Below, piece after piece: positions 35,713 to 40,641 of a DNA stretch of 52,900 nucleotides. Source of the DNA: Eubacteriales bacterium (GTDB lineage Bacteria; Bacillota; Clostridia; Tissierellales; GPF-1); assembly GCA_030625815.1 (NCBI GenBank), contig DAOUQF010000026.1:1-52900 (forward strand), in the 5' to 3' direction. The position numbers were made by a program, and so were the translations under genes. The notes below the pieces were generated by a model that was not told where the DNA came from, did no database searches, and saw only the letters and a program-made list of their open reading frames with translations. The stretch's first letter is position 1; each line of letters begins with the position of its first letter.

Positions 35713-35749
35713 CTGATTTTACGGTGAGAGGAATAAGGAGGAATGGTTG

Positions 35750-36973
35750 ATGATCCCAAAAAAGCTTATGCGGAGTGACCGGCCGCCCTATATGGTCGAT
35801 GAAGAACACTATCAGCGGTTTCCGGTACACCGCCAGGCGTTTGTATCAGTGAGTTTTCAAGATACAGGGGAAAAAACGCGGGTGGGGTTTATACCGAAGA
35901 TGCAAAAAGTCCTGGATGAAAAGATCCAGAATCAGGTGCCGGGGTACTCTCAAATTGACAATGCCCTGGATCTGGGTGCGAATGTTTTTGATCGGATGGT
36001 GGGACAGAATGGCGACCCCAATACGGAGCTTCTTCAATGGAATCCGGAATCGGAATCAGAACGGCGCGCCAGCCGAAAGATCGACTTGCCTCCAGAGGAA
36101 CTAACAAAAAGAGTAAAGGAAGCCACAGCGTTGTATGGTGCCGATTTATCGGGCATTGCAAGACTGGATGAACGCTGGATTTATAGCGAGGATCTGGTGA
36201 AGCCATTTGTCTTTACGGATAAAAGCGTCCCAGAAGAGACGGAGGAAGCCTTTCTGATTCCGAAAACCATGAATCGGGCGATTGTCATGGCCTTTGTGAT
36301 GGATGAGGATCTTTTAGCGTGTTCGCCAGGCGTCGCCAGCAATGCTGCGACCTCACTCGGGTATTCGAGAATGGCGATTGCAGCGGCTTCTCTGGCACAA
36401 TACATTCGCGCGTTGGGGTATCAAGCCATTCCGTGCATGAACGATACCGCCCTCAGCATTCCTCTGTCCATTGACGCTGGACTGGGTCAGCTGGGTCGGC
36501 ACGGGCTTTTGATTACACCGGAGTACGGCTCAAATATTCGTCTGGGCAAGGTGATTACCGATTTGCCGCTGATGCCCGATCATCCCATCGACTTTGGGGT
36601 GACGGAGTTTTGCGACAATTGCCTGCTTTGTGCGAAAAGCTGCCCGTCAAATTCCATCAGTGTAGGAGAGCGCAGTTTTGAGAGTAAAGAGAAAACGGGG
36701 AATTCGGGCGTACTGAAATGGCATATTCAAGGCGAAAGCTGTTTGCGGTTTTGGCAGGAAAATGGAACGAGCTGTTCGAATTGTATCATCGCCTGCCCCT
36801 TTACCCACGGATTTGAATGGCTGAATTGTTCGGAATGCGAAACCTGTGAAATCTATAACGGTTCATGCTCTTTGCAGACCAATGCGGAAATGAGAAAAAA
36901 ATATGGTTACCTGGAGGATACCTCATGGGGAAGCCCACCGAAGCGGATCCGACCAAAAAGGAGTGGGCTATAA
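35750..36973 (+). CDS. Reductive-dehalogenase-like corrinoid iron-sulfur protein, cytoplasmic
   Basis: 407 residues. LAQYIRALGYQAIPCMNDTALS and DAGLGQLGRHGLLITPEYGSNIRLGKVITDLPL are the corrinoid-binding core of reductive dehalogenases. CDNCLLCAKSCP is the first 4Fe-4S motif and C-x10-C-x2-C-x3-CP the second (CLRFWQENGTSCSNCIIACP). No Tat signal and no RdhB anchor gene occur, so it is soluble and not of the classical respiratory type. A further C-x2-C-x2-C-x6-C (CSECETCEIYNGSC) follows the second cluster. AAGGAGG is eight bases before the ATG at 35750. The substrate is unknown; dehalogenation is a family inference only. QueG is related but has different motifs. Confidence 0.82.
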   Translation: MIPKKLMRSDRPPYMVDEEHYQRFPVHRQAFVSVSFQDTGEKTRVGFIPKMQKVLDEKIQNQVPGYSQIDNALDLGANVFDRMVGQNGDPNTELLQWNPESESERRASRKIDLPPEELTKRVKEATALYGADLSGIARLDERWIYSEDLVKPFVFTDKSVPEETEEAFLIPKTMNRAIVMAFVMDEDLLACSPGVASNAATSLGYSRMAIAAASLAQYIRALGYQAIPCMNDTALSIPLSIDAGLGQLGRHGLLITPEYGSNIRLGKVITDLPLMPDHPIDFGVTEFCDNCLLCAKSCPSNSISVGERSFESKEKTGNSGVLKWHIQGESCLRFWQENGTSCSNCIIACPFTHGFEWLNCSECETCEIYNGSCSLQTNAEMRKKYGYLEDTSWGSPPKRIRPKRSGL

Positions 36974-37000
36974 GCCCAACGGGTTCGGTTTTAAGGTGCA
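36960..37000 (+). repeat. Left copy of an inverted repeat pair
   Basis: It begins GGAGTGGGCT, includes CAACGGGT and CGGTTTT, and ends AGGTGCA, with its partner inverted at 38600-38638 (about 35 aligned identical bases). It overlaps the last codons and TAA of the RdhA-like gene, and this copy also contains the hairpin GGGCT-ATA-AGCCC. Confidence 0.85.
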
Positions 37001-37047
37001 AAAATCAAAATCACATAGTAAATCACATTAGTTCTACAACAGAAATC

Positions 37048-37084
37048 ACAGCGGAATTCACATTATGGGAATTCCGCTGTTTTT
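37048..37084 (+). terminator. Terminator after the RdhA-like gene
   Basis: ACAGCGGAATTC (37048-37059) pairs with GAATTCCGCTGT (37069-37080), followed by TTTT. Two of the iterons lie in or next to it. Confidence 0.85.
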
Positions 37085-37164
37085 ACGTATTTGTGAGGTT
37101 TTTCATTAAATTCACACCTGTTTTCACAAGCTAAATCGCATAGTAATTCACAACAAAAATTCGA

Positions 37165-37184
37165 CGTTAACTCTAGCGTTAACG
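37165..37184. promoter_or_regulatory. 20-base near-perfect palindrome
   Basis: CGTTAACTCTAGCGTTAACG differs from its own complement at only one symmetric pair (two bases). It is flanked by AATTCACA on the left (37145) and TGTGAATT on the right (37186), giving a larger dyad. It lies downstream of the lipoprotein gene, which reads towards it. Confidence 0.6.
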
Positions 37185-37230
37185 ATGTGAATTAAGGCGA
37201 GAATACGTATGTGAATTCGGGTGTGAATTT

Positions 37231-37875
37231 TCATTCTATCGGCATTAAGTTGATTTCATTCTTTTTGTAATGAGTAAACGTGATAGGTTCTCCGTTAAAC
37301 TCCTCTCGGGTATACTCTCCATCCTCATCAGGAAATACTCGCATCTTTCCTATATTGTATAAGACCCAACGTTCATCTAGCTTTTGGAACCAATAGTTGT
37401 ATAGTTTTGTCATGTTTCTTTCGGGAATTACTCCATCAATTACTTCATCGTTCTCATCAAATATTGTAATACTCTGTCTAACAATGACATATCTGAAGAA
37501 ATCTCGCTCCGGATTCAGGTCGTCATAAACCGGTGAAATATCCGTCACTATCTCGACTCGATTGGCGTCATGGCCGAAAACAAATCTCAGCTTTTCTTGC
37601 CCTGAATAGACCTTCCCGTTAATTTCGACATCAGCAGCTGTCTGATTTGCTGCTTCCATGCGTTCGGCCAATAAGTCTTCCCCAACAATATCTGAAATGG
37701 CTTTTTTGTATTCTTTCACCGAACCCCCAGCAGATAAAGCTTCGCCCGCATCCAAATATTCTTTGGTCCATGCAAGGAAATCCGACGCTTCCTGTTTGAC
37801 AGCTTCCGTTTCCTGACTGCATCCGGTCAATAACAATACAAGTAATACAAAAGATAATAAAAATGTTTTTTTCAT
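37231..37875 (-). CDS. Lipoprotein of unknown function in the repeat-flanked segment
   Basis: 214 residues. The signal peptide ends with lipobox LLTGC (Cys near residue 19), so it should be lipid-anchored outside. The mature domain is mixed alpha/beta and acidic; FRYVIVRQSITIFDENDEVIDG and KLDERWVLYNIGKMRVFPDEDG resemble small extracytoplasmic NTF2-like folds, but I recognise no family. GGGGGCGGCT stands before the ATG. A sampled 60-base line has 18 G/C, against about 30 in the helicase gene. The gene upstream on the same strand also encodes an exported protein. Confidence 0.7.
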   Translation of the reverse strand: MKKTFLLSFVLLVLLLTGCSQETEAVKQEASDFLAWTKEYLDAGEALSAGGSVKEYKKAISDIVGEDLLAERMEAANQTAADVEINGKVYSGQEKLRFVFGHDANRVEIVTDISPVYDDLNPERDFFRYVIVRQSITIFDENDEVIDGVIPERNMTKLYNYWFQKLDERWVLYNIGKMRVFPDEDGEYTREEFNGEPITFTHYKKNEINLMPIE

Positions 37876-37902
37876 AGCCGCCCCCCTATCTTTGACTACA
37901 TC

Positions 37903-38340
37903 TCAATCAACGTTTTTTAACTCAAACGTCTCCACATTCCCATCCATATCAACAGTAATCGTCATCACAGTATACGGTGTTGGAACTCCCGAATTGCGTC
38001 TTTCTATCCGATAGGTTTTTTTCATGATAGTATCATGATATTCTCTTAGGTGACCACTTCCTGGTCCAAGATCATAGAAAATTGATAAATGCTCCACTTT
38101 AGGTGCAGTCTCAACCTCTTGTTCGTATGTGATGATTAATACTCCGTCAACATAGCTATCAAATTCTGTGCGGTCATCAACTTCCGTAAATATCCACTTT
38201 CCTTTAACTCTATACTCGGCACTCCAAGAATCAGATTCTCCGCGATAGACTAAGTTGTGGCGAATAACATCTCGATTCCATGAGTATCCGACAACTGCAA
38301 TTAACGCAACCATAATTACAAGAATAATCCTCTTCTTCAT
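37903..38340 (-). CDS. Small membrane-anchored protein of unknown function
   Basis: 145 residues. One N-terminal hydrophobic segment (residues about 4-20) without a lipobox anchors or exports it. The remainder is beta-rich (SWSAEYRVKGKWIFTEVDD, VLIITYEQEV, MTITVDMDGNVETFEL) and resembles domains of hypothetical Firmicutes surface proteins. CAGGAGGT precedes the ATG. It lies 27 bases before the lipoprotein, so the two are probably one operon. I recognise no function. Confidence 0.7.
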   Translation of the reverse strand: MKKRIILVIMVALIAVVGYSWNRDVIRHNLVYRGESDSWSAEYRVKGKWIFTEVDDRTEFDSYVDGVLIITYEQEVETAPKVEHLSIFYDLGPGSGHLREYHDTIMKKTYRIERRNSGVPTPYTVMTITVDMDGNVETFELKNVD

Positions 38341-38368
38341 ATTTACCTCCTGAGTCTCGTTTAACTAA

Positions 38369-38374
38369 ATTATA
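38369..38374 (-). promoter_or_regulatory. Candidate -10 box for the two-gene operon
   Basis: TATAAT on the minus strand (38374-38369), 29 bases before the start at 38340. It is preceded by TGA rather than a clear extended -10, and no good -35 is visible. Confidence 0.4.
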
Positions 38375-38500
38375 TCACTTCGCGATATTTTAATCATTTT
38401 TTAACAAAAACTCACTATTAATTTAAAAAGTTATAGTGTTTAGTCTTTTCAAATGAAGCATAATGTCTATAGAAGTAAAATTCAAATTAACATGTATATA

Positions 38501-38535
38501 AGAAAAAGGTAACGATTAATTTAATCGCTACCTTT
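38501..38535 (-). terminator. Terminator on the right side of the repeat-flanked segment
   Basis: AAAGGTAACGATT pairs with AATCGCTACCTTT (one mismatch). On the minus strand it ends in TTTTTCT. It should stop the radical SAM/DUF4130 transcript, about 100 bases after that operon ends. 38375-38500 holds nothing else recognisable. Confidence 0.75.
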
Positions 38536-38599
38536 CCGTGAAATAGTATGATAATTTGCATGAATATTCGTGTGTGATTTCAGTTGTGGTTTTGCAATA

Positions 38600-38638
38600 T
38601 GCACCTCAAAACCGGACCCGTTGCTATAAGCCCACTCC
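38600..38638 (-). repeat. Right, inverted copy of the repeat pair
   Basis: Read on the minus strand it begins GGAGTGGGCTTATAGC, includes CAACGGGT and CGGTTTT, and ends AGGTGCA. It starts immediately after the stop of the DUF4130 gene and is followed by CACA-containing A-rich sequence and then a terminator, the same order as on the left side. Confidence 0.85.
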
Positions 38639-38639
38639 C

Positions 38640-39383
38640 TTAACGAAATTGGGGTGAATTGACTTCTATTAGGTCTTTCCAATAGCGTTTTGGCATATAC
38701 TGCGTCTGAAGCCGCGGATTCTTTCTTTCAGGGATGGCGATATGGGTGAAATACCCTCGCCATAATTGTTGGATGGCAAGTTCTTCCCGGGGCAGTGTGA
38801 GGGCGAAATCTCGTTTGAAAGGCACCATGCGCCATTTTACGCCATTACAGAGAATCGCAAGATTTCGCTTGGTGTCATGGATAATCCAGGGTTCTCCATG
38901 GAGTCGATCAAGAAAATGATCCGACAGGAGACCGAGAATGGCGTTGTCCGGTGAAAAAGAGGCGTAGAGGATTCCCTTGATCTCTTGGAATCGGATGAGC
39001 CCCAGGAAGCGAGCCGCTTCCCACTCGACTGCGGCTGCGATGGTTTGGACGGGTTCTACATCGGGGTGGGTGAAAATCGCATCAAAACCACGACCCTTTC
39101 TGAATCCAAAGTTTAAATAAGTGAGCAAGAGGTTTTCCTTATTGGGGTGATCCGACAGAAAGGCACGACCGCATTTATGGGCGACATCCGGAGAGAAGCG
39201 TTCTTCCAGTTCGTGATAGAAGTTGGCCGCACGGATGGGGTCCGTTTCGATTGTGCGTAGGTTTTCTCCCAAACGATATTGGTAAAGGGTTTCTGGAAAA
39301 ATTCCAGAAGCTCTTTTTTCTTGAAAATGGATGGCGGCAGCGGTTAGAAAACCGTCAAATGAGTGATCATATAGATAATCCAT
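38640..39383 (-). CDS. DNA-metabolism protein linked to a radical SAM enzyme (DUF4130/TIGR03915 type)
   Basis: 247 residues from the ATG at 39383, preceded by AGGAGG; the longer upstream form is rejected. It begins MDYLYDHSFDGFLTA as in the family, and AVEWEAARFLGLIRFQ plus WIIHDTKRNLAILCNG are diagnostic. The family is always found beside a radical SAM protein with a helix-hairpin-helix tail and may carry a uracil-DNA-glycosylase-like partner function; the actual reaction is not established. It overlaps the radical SAM gene by 17 bases. Confidence 0.85.
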   Translation of the reverse strand: MDYLYDHSFDGFLTAAAIHFQEKRASGIFPETLYQYRLGENLRTIETDPIRAANFYHELEERFSPDVAHKCGRAFLSDHPNKENLLLTYLNFGFRKGRGFDAIFTHPDVEPVQTIAAAVEWEAARFLGLIRFQEIKGILYASFSPDNAILGLLSDHFLDRLHGEPWIIHDTKRNLAILCNGVKWRMVPFKRDFALTLPREELAIQQLWRGYFTHIAIPERKNPRLQTQYMPKRYWKDLIEVNSPQFR

Positions 39384-40641
39384 GGGTTTGTCCTCCTTTG
39401 GTGTCTGGGAATAGCCGCAATTGATGGCTCCATTCCGGTTGCAAGGCTGTTTTAATTCCTTCTGGGGATAGGGAGCGACCGCCATAGTATTTTCCTTTTA
39501 TGGTAAGAAAGAAACGCGCCCGCTTCCAGACAAGCCGAGTTTTTTTCACTTCCTCGACGGTGAGGGAAGCAAGGCGGCGCTGATTGACAATTCTGGATGC
39601 CGTTCTGTGTCCAATGCCCGGCACACGAATCAGGGTTTCAAAGGGTGCTCGATTGATCTCGACGGGAAAAAGTTCTAGATGGCGAATGGCCCAAATCATT
39701 TTGGGATCGAAATCCGCATCAAAATGAGGCTTGATCTCATCGAGCAATTCCTCGGCTCGAAACCCGTAAAACCGCAAAAGCCAATCCGCTTGATACAGGC
39801 GATGTTCCCGCATCAAGGGAGCGATTCGCGGGGTGGGAACCAAGATTTTTTTTGGATTTCCTACAGGGATGTAGGCGGAGTAAAAAACACGTTTCAATTG
39901 AAAGCGATCATAGAGTTTCTGCGAGGTGCGAATCAATTGATAGTCGGATTCCGGACTGGCGCCGATAATCATTTGGGTGGACTGTCCGGCAGGCACGAAA
40001 GATTGAGCGTTGCGGTATTGTTTGAGGGCATAGCGGTTTTCCGCAATCCCGTGTTGGATTTGCTTCATGGGCTGCAGTAGGGTTTCTAATTGTTTTTGCG
40101 GCGCCAGGCGCTGCAGGGATTCACGGCTGGGAAGCTCAATATTTGCGCTCATGCGATCCGCGAGAAAACCAGCCTGCTGGATCAGCCTCGGATCCGCGCC
40201 GGGAATGGCTTTCACATGGATGTAGCCCTGAAATTGCCATTGATGCCGCAAGAGTTCCAAAGTTTTCACGATTTGTTCCATGGTTTGATTGGGCGAACCC
40301 TCTACAGCGCTGGACAAAAATAGTCCTTCGATATAGTTTCGCCGATAAAAAGCCATGGTTGTCTTGGCAATCTCTTCCGGTGATAGCCGTGCCCGAGGCA
40401 CGTCGTTGGATGCGCGATTGATGCAATAGGCACAGTCATAGACGCAGTGGTTTGTCATCAGGATTTTCAAGAGTGAAATGCAGCGTCCGTCGGCTGCCCA
40501 CGCGTGGCAGATGCCAAAGGAGCGCGCGTTGCCGATCCCGCCCGATCGATTGTTCTTCCGTTCGTTTCCACTGGAGGAGCAACTGACATCGTATTTCGCG
40601 GAGTCGGCAAGAATTTGAAGTCGATCATAGATATCGTACAT
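39367..40641 (-). CDS. Putative DNA modification/repair radical SAM protein
   Basis: 424 residues. The cluster-binding motif is Cys66-x3-Cys70-x2-Cys73 (CVYDCAYC), inside LMTNHCVYDCAYCINR. The middle has the SAM barrel (FLSSAVEGSPNQTMEQIV, YIHVKAIPGAD). Near residue 350, RVPGIGHRTASRIVNQRR is a helix-hairpin-helix that binds DNA. This arrangement defines the radical SAM family found with DUF4130 proteins. The substrate base or lesion is not known. AGGAGGTG precedes the ATG at 40641. Confidence 0.9.
   Translation of the reverse strand: MYDIYDRLQILADSAKYDVSCSSSGNERKNNRSGGIGNARSFGICHAWAADGRCISLLKILMTNHCVYDCAYCINRASNDVPRARLSPEEIAKTTMAFYRRNYIEGLFLSSAVEGSPNQTMEQIVKTLELLRHQWQFQGYIHVKAIPGADPRLIQQAGFLADRMSANIELPSRESLQRLAPQKQLETLLQPMKQIQHGIAENRYALKQYRNAQSFVPAGQSTQMIIGASPESDYQLIRTSQKLYDRFQLKRVFYSAYIPVGNPKKILVPTPRIAPLMREHRLYQADWLLRFYGFRAEELLDEIKPHFDADFDPKMIWAIRHLELFPVEINRAPFETLIRVPGIGHRTASRIVNQRRLASLTVEEVKKTRLVWKRARFFLTIKGKYYGGRSLSPEGIKTALQPEWSHQLRLFPDTKGGQTHGLSI

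Follow-up and report, generated by a model that had tools for sequence, protein, structure and literature searches.

A probable non-autonomous Tn7491-like transposon in a split terminator between two convergent genes of a Tissierellales bacterium

When an inverted pair of repeats lies at the very ends of two convergent genes, do the repeats belong to the genes or to a mobile element between them? This question is raised by a locus in a 52,900-nt stretch of an Eubacteriales bacterium (Tissierellales, GPF-1; assembly GCA_030625815.1, contig DAOUQF010000026.1, positions 1 to 52,900; hereafter the window), in which a sequence of 39-41 bases occurs at 36960-37000 on the plus strand and again, inverted, at 38600-38638. 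An initial annotation, made from the letters alone, had proposed either an undescribed non-autonomous cassette moved in trans or a repeat family with a common function at 3' ends. In our analysis, positions 36977-38623 very probably (about 0.92) constitute a 1647-bp non-autonomous, cargo-carrying transposon of a Tn7491-like family whose targets are terminator dyads. The evidence consists of the ends, a target duplication, an empty site in a relative, a linked transposase-bearing element and the recurrence of the same target rule at other sites.

The pair itself is real: a scan for inverted 24-mers (at least 21/24 matches, 0.5-4 kb apart) returned no rival in the window, three further rows being shifted views of the same pair. 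Searching the genome with the left copy showed that the repeat is not unique to this site, a second inverted pair being present on contig C20 (C20:71592 and C20:75246) and a lone diverged end on contig C44 (C44:140416). The matches start only at repeat base 17-18, and at C20 the outer bases are another sequence, AGAAGGCGAT, likewise inverted on both sides. We therefore set the limits of the element at CAACGGG (36977) and CCCGTTG (38623). The inner 24 bases of the two window copies (CAACGGGTYCGGTTTTRAGGTGCA) are identical at 22 of 24 positions. The repeat is thus composite, and its initial description as a single unit did not hold: the inner 24 bases are terminal repeats, and the outer bases (36960-36976 and 38624-38638) are target DNA outside the element, made of the arms of a split terminator hairpin and a 9-bp target duplication. 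Alignment of the flanks, as initially suggested, revealed nine identical bases on each side, CTATAAGCC at the window element and GATTGTATC at the C20 element. Joining the flanks restored a perfect hairpin in both cases, GGAGTGGGCT-ATA-AGCCCACTCC in the window and AGAAGGCGAT-TGT-ATCGCCTTCT, followed by a T run, at C20. The copies do abut or overlap the flanking stop codons, as had been noted: the left stop (36971-36973) falls within the repeat, and the end of the right gene is at 38640. Gene-end repeats can pass for element ends, the transposon being only the inner part of the repeat. The locus is laid out as follows.

35747-36973, plus strand: left flanking gene, for a reductive dehalogenase/QueG-like Fe-S protein; the target hairpin includes its stop codon, which is preserved
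36960-36976, plus strand: left half of the target terminator hairpin, with the left duplication CTATAAGCC (36968-36976)
36977-37000, plus strand: left terminal inverted repeat CAACGGGTTCGGTTTTAAGGTGCA
37011-37226, plus strand: array of TCACA/TGTGA boxes with a 12-bp phase, putative binding sites of transposition proteins
37048-37080, plus strand: inward-reading terminator-like hairpin of the left end
37231-37875, minus strand: passenger gene 1, for a 214-aa lipoprotein that shares 82% identity with the C20 passenger over 198 aa
37903-38340, minus strand: passenger gene 2, for a 145-aa exported-looking protein; homologues occur in both other genomes of the genus
38503-38537, minus strand: inward-reading terminator-like hairpin of the right end
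38600-38623, minus strand: right terminal inverted repeat CAACGGGTCCGGTTTTGAGGTGCA, as read on the minus strand
38624-38638, plus strand: right duplication CTATAAGCC (38624-38632) and right half of the split terminator hairpin
38640-39485, minus strand: right flanking gene, facing the left one in convergent orientation, for a TIGR03915/DUF4130 putative DNA repair protein

The segment is AT-rich (G+C 34-44% in windows inside it, mostly 48-53% outside), and its gene content agrees with the early description of two exported-looking products. As no homologous transposase was found among the products encoded between 36977 and 38623, the element is filed as a non-autonomous derivative only; it comprises terminal inverted repeats of about 24 bp, 12-bp-phased boxes in the left end and two cargo genes, without a transposase operon. 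Its ends show one mismatch (left) and two mismatches (right) to a 20-base family pattern and can be aligned with the terminal-repeat consensus of the family, YAA[C/G]NNGTTCRGTTTTGRRGTRCAAA.

Of the two further genomes of the genus, one has a clean empty site. In this sister species (G001) both convergent genes are present, and between them the hairpin GGAGTGGGCTATAAGCCCGCTCC is unbroken, with one G-T pair, and a single copy of CTATAAGCC occurs; a few extra bases lie between the matches. The comparison of close relatives proposed at the outset thus gave an empty site between the same two genes. The other genome (G002) also carries both genes, and the same terminator loop there holds a different insert of 1.3 kb that encodes a GNAT acetyltransferase (L044 170-1497). 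This insert is flanked by diverged CTATAAG/CTGTAAG, and in a search of the three genomes its left end gave a good match only to itself.

A transposase-bearing relative resides in the same genome. The C20 element, of 3653 bp, has matching ends, a 9-bp duplication and a split hairpin, and codes for an 84-aa protein, an overlapping transposase-like frame and an antisense lipoprotein. The transposase-like frame has 658 codons, including one in-frame TAG and the final stop; this is the sole family transposase copy found in the genome (L011 5223-7196), and unbroken frames occur in other genera. The product gave no Pfam match above cut-off and the transposase no match in PDB by sequence. An internal stretch resembles the zinc ribbon/helix-turn-helix region of insertion sequence (IS) IS1, at scores well under the family cut-off: the second piece of the C20 transposase scored 21.1 bits against the IS1 family model, and the Priestia transposase 33.5 bits (E 3.7e-8) against NF033558 (IS1), for which the cut-off is 100. 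The intact transposase examined had a single Pfam match, a weak one to a zinc-ribbon model. An AlphaFold2 model of the transposase (six relatives) reached a predicted local distance difference test score (pLDDT) of 40.6 and was not used. The product of the small open reading frame (ORF) ahead of the transposase was modelled as helical (pLDDT 61.9); Foldseek returned 16 matches, all insignificant (best E 2.4), 7 of them to chains of CopG or TacA1, which are ribbon-helix-helix proteins; we take this as a lead only. The best PDB sequence match of this product (E 0.024) was to a protein taken as unrelated.

The transposases of C20 and of Tn7491, the carrier of the trimethoprim-resistance gene dfrG, share 40% identity over the aligned part. 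A tblastn search with the second piece of the C20 transposase retrieved 114 plasmid records, 97 of them over at least 80% of the length and all below 60% identity, and 2 phage records. The best-ranked plasmid matches, at about 40% identity, were mostly from Enterococcus, with some from Staphylococcus, Listeria and Lactococcus; a few distant ones were at 22-28%. dfrG is annotated beside the transposase in 12/12 fetched regions of the 40% class. The species genome collection contributed eleven more loci (Cellulosilyticum, Priestia, Anoxybacillus, Bhargavaea, Atopostipes, Oceanobacillus, Chryseomicrobium, Rossellomorea, Peribacillus, Jeotgalibacillus and a Bacillus fragment), and in ten of them at least one family end was found. 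The small ORF precedes the transposase in 6/8 of the loci examined for it, as well as in C20 and Tn7491. Cargo after the transposase is often antisense and varied: dfrG, a MarR regulator with an oxidoreductase, a serine hydrolase of the beta-lactamase family, or a histidine phosphatase-like protein; hydrolases neighbour the Cellulosilyticum copy, for which no right end was found. The right ends of the single-ended loci L012, L031, L033, L035 and L038 were not found either. Among 100 relatives, six matched in a transposase search and, besides this genome, only G026 did so convincingly, in pieces with stops; the other four matches were weak (E 2e-4 to 1e-3) and lay inside frames of 1167-1200 codons. 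One exact end pattern was searched in 398 genomes of the phylum and occurred in this genome only. A dfrG transposon was also seen within a staphylococcal phage, beside the major tail protein gene, and viral contigs contained one relative with the same ends at the same site (L029, L042).

The family is known through Tn7491, and the window element is a non-autonomous member of it with other cargo: the mobility initially suspected is supported, and the candidate cassette is not wholly undescribed, given the 40% identity of the relative's transposase. In the naming paper (PMC10763498), the dfrG transposon is registered as Tn7491 with the terminal repeat TAAGTAGTTCAGTTTTGGAGTACAAAA and a 9-bp duplication. 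It shares with the window and C20 elements this alignable repeat consensus, the 9-bp duplication, a 12-bp lag in the left end and insertion in terminator loops, and with C20 the layout of small ORF, transposase of about 650 aa and antisense cargo. It differs from the window element, which lacks transposase genes and has other cargo, and from C20, whose 40% identical transposase contains a stop. Tn7491 was originally observed within Tn6198, its transposase being labelled 'insertion element protein', and one paper credits dfrG mobility to IS257 and IS256 instead.

Insertion in terminators is a recurrent property of the family. We reconstructed 16 non-redundant empty sites from the fetched loci, leaving out L029 (at the L042 site, with an additional base in its left junction), L048 (duplication identical to that of L049), L053 (no left end), L055 (flanks mismatch), L056 (right flank departs from L054 after 7 bases), L041 (no ends) and the five single-ended loci. 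Exact duplications were present at 15/16 sites, 13 of them 9 bp long and two 10 bp long; the remaining site showed an 8-bp duplication and two unmatched bases. A first hairpin test, in which the midpoint had to fall in the loop of a folded 49-mer with at least 5 enclosing pairs, did not discriminate (15/16 sites vs 2932/6059 controls) and was replaced. A stem with a score of at least 8, centred within 3 bp of the duplication midpoint, was found at 10/16 sites vs 20/4800 control positions from these loci. When the tolerance was narrowed to 1.5 bp around the duplication centre, a dyad was found at 9/16 sites vs 11/2400 local positions 6-80 bp away, and in 8 of these 9 it was exactly central. An A-tract on the left with a T-tract on the right accompanied 12/16 sites vs 552/6059 controls. 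As the loop varies from 3 to 13 bases and the duplication stays at 9-10, the transposition machinery seems to read the symmetry centre rather than the loop edges. In two Enterococcus plasmids (L047, L052), nearly the same terminator, by an SOS-peptidase gene, carries insertions of opposite orientations at the same centre; inversion in place may account for this. No statement of terminator targeting by the Tn7491 family was found in the literature consulted, which was mainly open-access and exclusive of the original Tn6198 description; 'terminator' and 'hairpin' have 0 occurrences in the main text of the naming paper (PMC10763498), and 'terminator' is absent from the main text of the dfrG papers examined.

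The ends also often carry terminator-like hairpins of their own. Within 220 bp, an inward-reading terminator-like hairpin was found at 12/18 family ends vs 9/190 control windows. In the window element, our own scan detected a hairpin with a T-tract reading inward at each end, as had been described; a stricter consensus scanner reported two other terminator-like sites and neither of these hairpins. The CACA-rich sequence noted inward of the repeats corresponds to 11 TCACA/TGTGA boxes in the first 280 bases of the left end (shuffle mean 1.06), with 4 box pairs at exactly 12 bp (shuffle mean 0.0025). The C20 left end contains 12 boxes (shuffle mean 1.18) and 7 pairs at 12 bp (shuffle mean 0.0035). 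Among lags 6-24, lag 12 gave the top count of repeated boxes or 5-mers in 9/9 left ends; for seven of them (L029, L031-L034, L039, L040) these are 5-mer counts without shuffle control, and in L040 lag 12 leads by a small margin, its peak being weak. The sequence of the boxes varies between family members and their 12-bp spacing is constant, which suggests a coevolving binding protein; from its model, the small ORF product is a candidate for this role. An Rfam match to mir-982 was rejected as far below the gathering score.

A mechanism can be proposed on this basis. Most likely, family transposase supplied in trans acted on the paired ends of the window element, and a 9-bp staggered cut was made at the dyad of the terminator between the two convergent genes. 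The insertion split the hairpin, duplicated its centre (CTATAAGCC) and spared both coding regions, and the inward hairpins of the element came to adjoin both genes in place of the split terminator. Because these hairpins now adjoin both genes, termination is probably kept, the element-borne terminators presumably compensating for the split one. The transposase, perhaps with its small partner, would read the inverted-repeat structure, either as symmetry of double-stranded DNA or as an extruded cruciform. The early proposal of a cassette moved in trans is supported by the transposase-bearing relative with matching ends, the empty site of G001 and the 9-bp duplication; movement in trans itself can only be inferred, since the sole transposase copy in the assembly has an in-frame stop. 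For the Tn7491 family at large, the clinically relevant dfrG transposon included, we rather favour the same scheme: structure-guided choice of a terminator dyad by the transposase, possibly aided by a ribbon-helix-helix-like protein on the 12-bp iterons, then 9-bp staggered insertion and replacement of the terminator with the inward ones of the element (a 'terminator-for-terminator swap'). Insertions would then be transcriptionally silent, cargo would spread neutrally and non-autonomous cassettes would ride along. If true, this would provide a simple landing rule for cargo and resistance transposons, namely terminator centres, where nearby genes suffer little; it would help to explain the reach of Tn7491 into many plasmids and predict hot spots. 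It would also be a second route, unlike the stem-loop replacement of IS1272, by which a transposase reads DNA symmetry over sequence.

Several observations weigh against the assignment of the window element to such a transposon. An intact transposase was not found in this assembly, and the low-confidence model of the transposase gave no proof of its catalytic class. The window and C20 copies are 83% identical over the left 260 bases and 73% over the right 122, a divergence too large for one to have been copied recently from the other. The window duplication is 1 bp off the dyad, a strong stem at the centre is missing in 6/16 sites, and Jeotgalibacillus passes the looser stem test only. The six weak-stem sites are Bhargavaea, where insertion is at the foot of the hairpin, and Oceanobacillus, Peribacillus, the staphylococcal phage, pK195 and Lactococcus, where the stem is weak, absent or unclear; the preference for terminators is accordingly strong, not absolute. 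Full independence does not hold for all 16 sites, since L047 and L052 share a terminator. Finally, the control positions were not confined to intergenic DNA, so that selection against genic insertion could enrich terminators. This last point leads to the best of the rival explanations, in which the element inserts anywhere and survives only between genes, where convergent gaps hold terminators. The window insertion indeed leaves both genes intact, and a second copy of Tn7491 in one published strain lies between convergent genes (PMC10763498). Selection does not readily explain centring at the level of the base, with 8/16 duplications exactly on the dyad vs 11/2400 nearby positions that fit, nor, inversion in place aside, one plasmid terminator with opposite-orientation insertions at the same centre, and we regard it as unlikely.

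Targeting of terminator hairpins has a precedent in IS1272 and TnSha1 of the IS1182 family. Another explanation is that the element, in the manner of these, recognises a cruciform and replaces it. As described in PMC4923244 and PMC5678879, inverted repeats and terminators are targets of this kind too, TnSha1 carries a cargo gene, and 5/7 of its sequenced targets were confirmed as terminators by RNA-seq. IS1272 and TnSha1 reportedly delete part of the stem-loop without duplication, whereas both hairpin arms are kept at the window element with a 9-bp duplication, and duplications of 9-10 bp occur at 15/16 sites. The intact family transposase matches a zinc-ribbon model only, weakly. Stem-loop replacement is hence very improbable here, although a loop-duplicating insertion was drawn by the IS1272 authors as one possible pathway (PMC5678879).

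Still less probable is that the repeats form a bidirectional terminator or regulatory repeat family rather than transposon ends. They do lie at gene ends, include hairpin arms and adjoin terminator-like hairpins. But the conserved part starts at CAACGGG and the sites differ outside it, and this reading leaves unexplained the linked transposase gene, the 9-bp duplications and the empty site, where CTATAAGCC occurs once. The initial alternative of 3'-end repeats with a shared function is not supported either: their gene-end part is the target hairpin, which is not the same from one insertion to the next (GGAGTGGGCT in the window, AGAAGGCGAT at C20). An integron-like cassette with attC-like ends on which an integrase acts is the least credible, since GCCCAAC/GTTGGGC resembles the attC core by eye but the ends are inverted, not direct, duplications are present and the linked gene codes for a zinc-ribbon/helix-turn-helix transposase-like protein.

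Two other known groups can be set beside the Tn7491-like family. IS1 shares its weak internal zinc-ribbon/helix-turn-helix similarity and also makes 9-bp duplications; it differs in that the Tn7491-like family has a protein of about 650 aa, a separate small ORF, cargo and a structured target. Mobile insertion cassettes, a structural label, resemble the window element in having IS ends around passenger genes and no transposase; the familiar examples belong to other IS families with other ends.

Both cargo genes of the window element are on the minus strand; the lipoprotein has an LTGC motif and the 145-aa protein a hydrophobic N-terminus. Homologues of the lipoprotein are present outside elements in all three genus genomes (52-58% identity), and those of the 145-aa protein in G001 and G002 (34-47%); G001 has one pair of homologues side by side. 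No family end was found near cargo homologues in the four regions examined. As the homologues sit outside elements and without family ends, the cargo appears, from these comparisons, to have been captured from host genes. PADLOC and PHROGs gave weak matches only for the two cargo proteins. Clusters of genes for cargo-related lipoproteins and small exported proteins (L072 4438-5840, L073 4973-8939) differ among the genus genomes.

The lone diverged family end on C44 of the same genome (G000; L012 5417-7394) adjoins two genes, one for a HipA-like kinase and one for a partner. The kinase matches the candidate defence model PDC-M03A well and its partner matches PDC-M03B weakly (E 0.0015).

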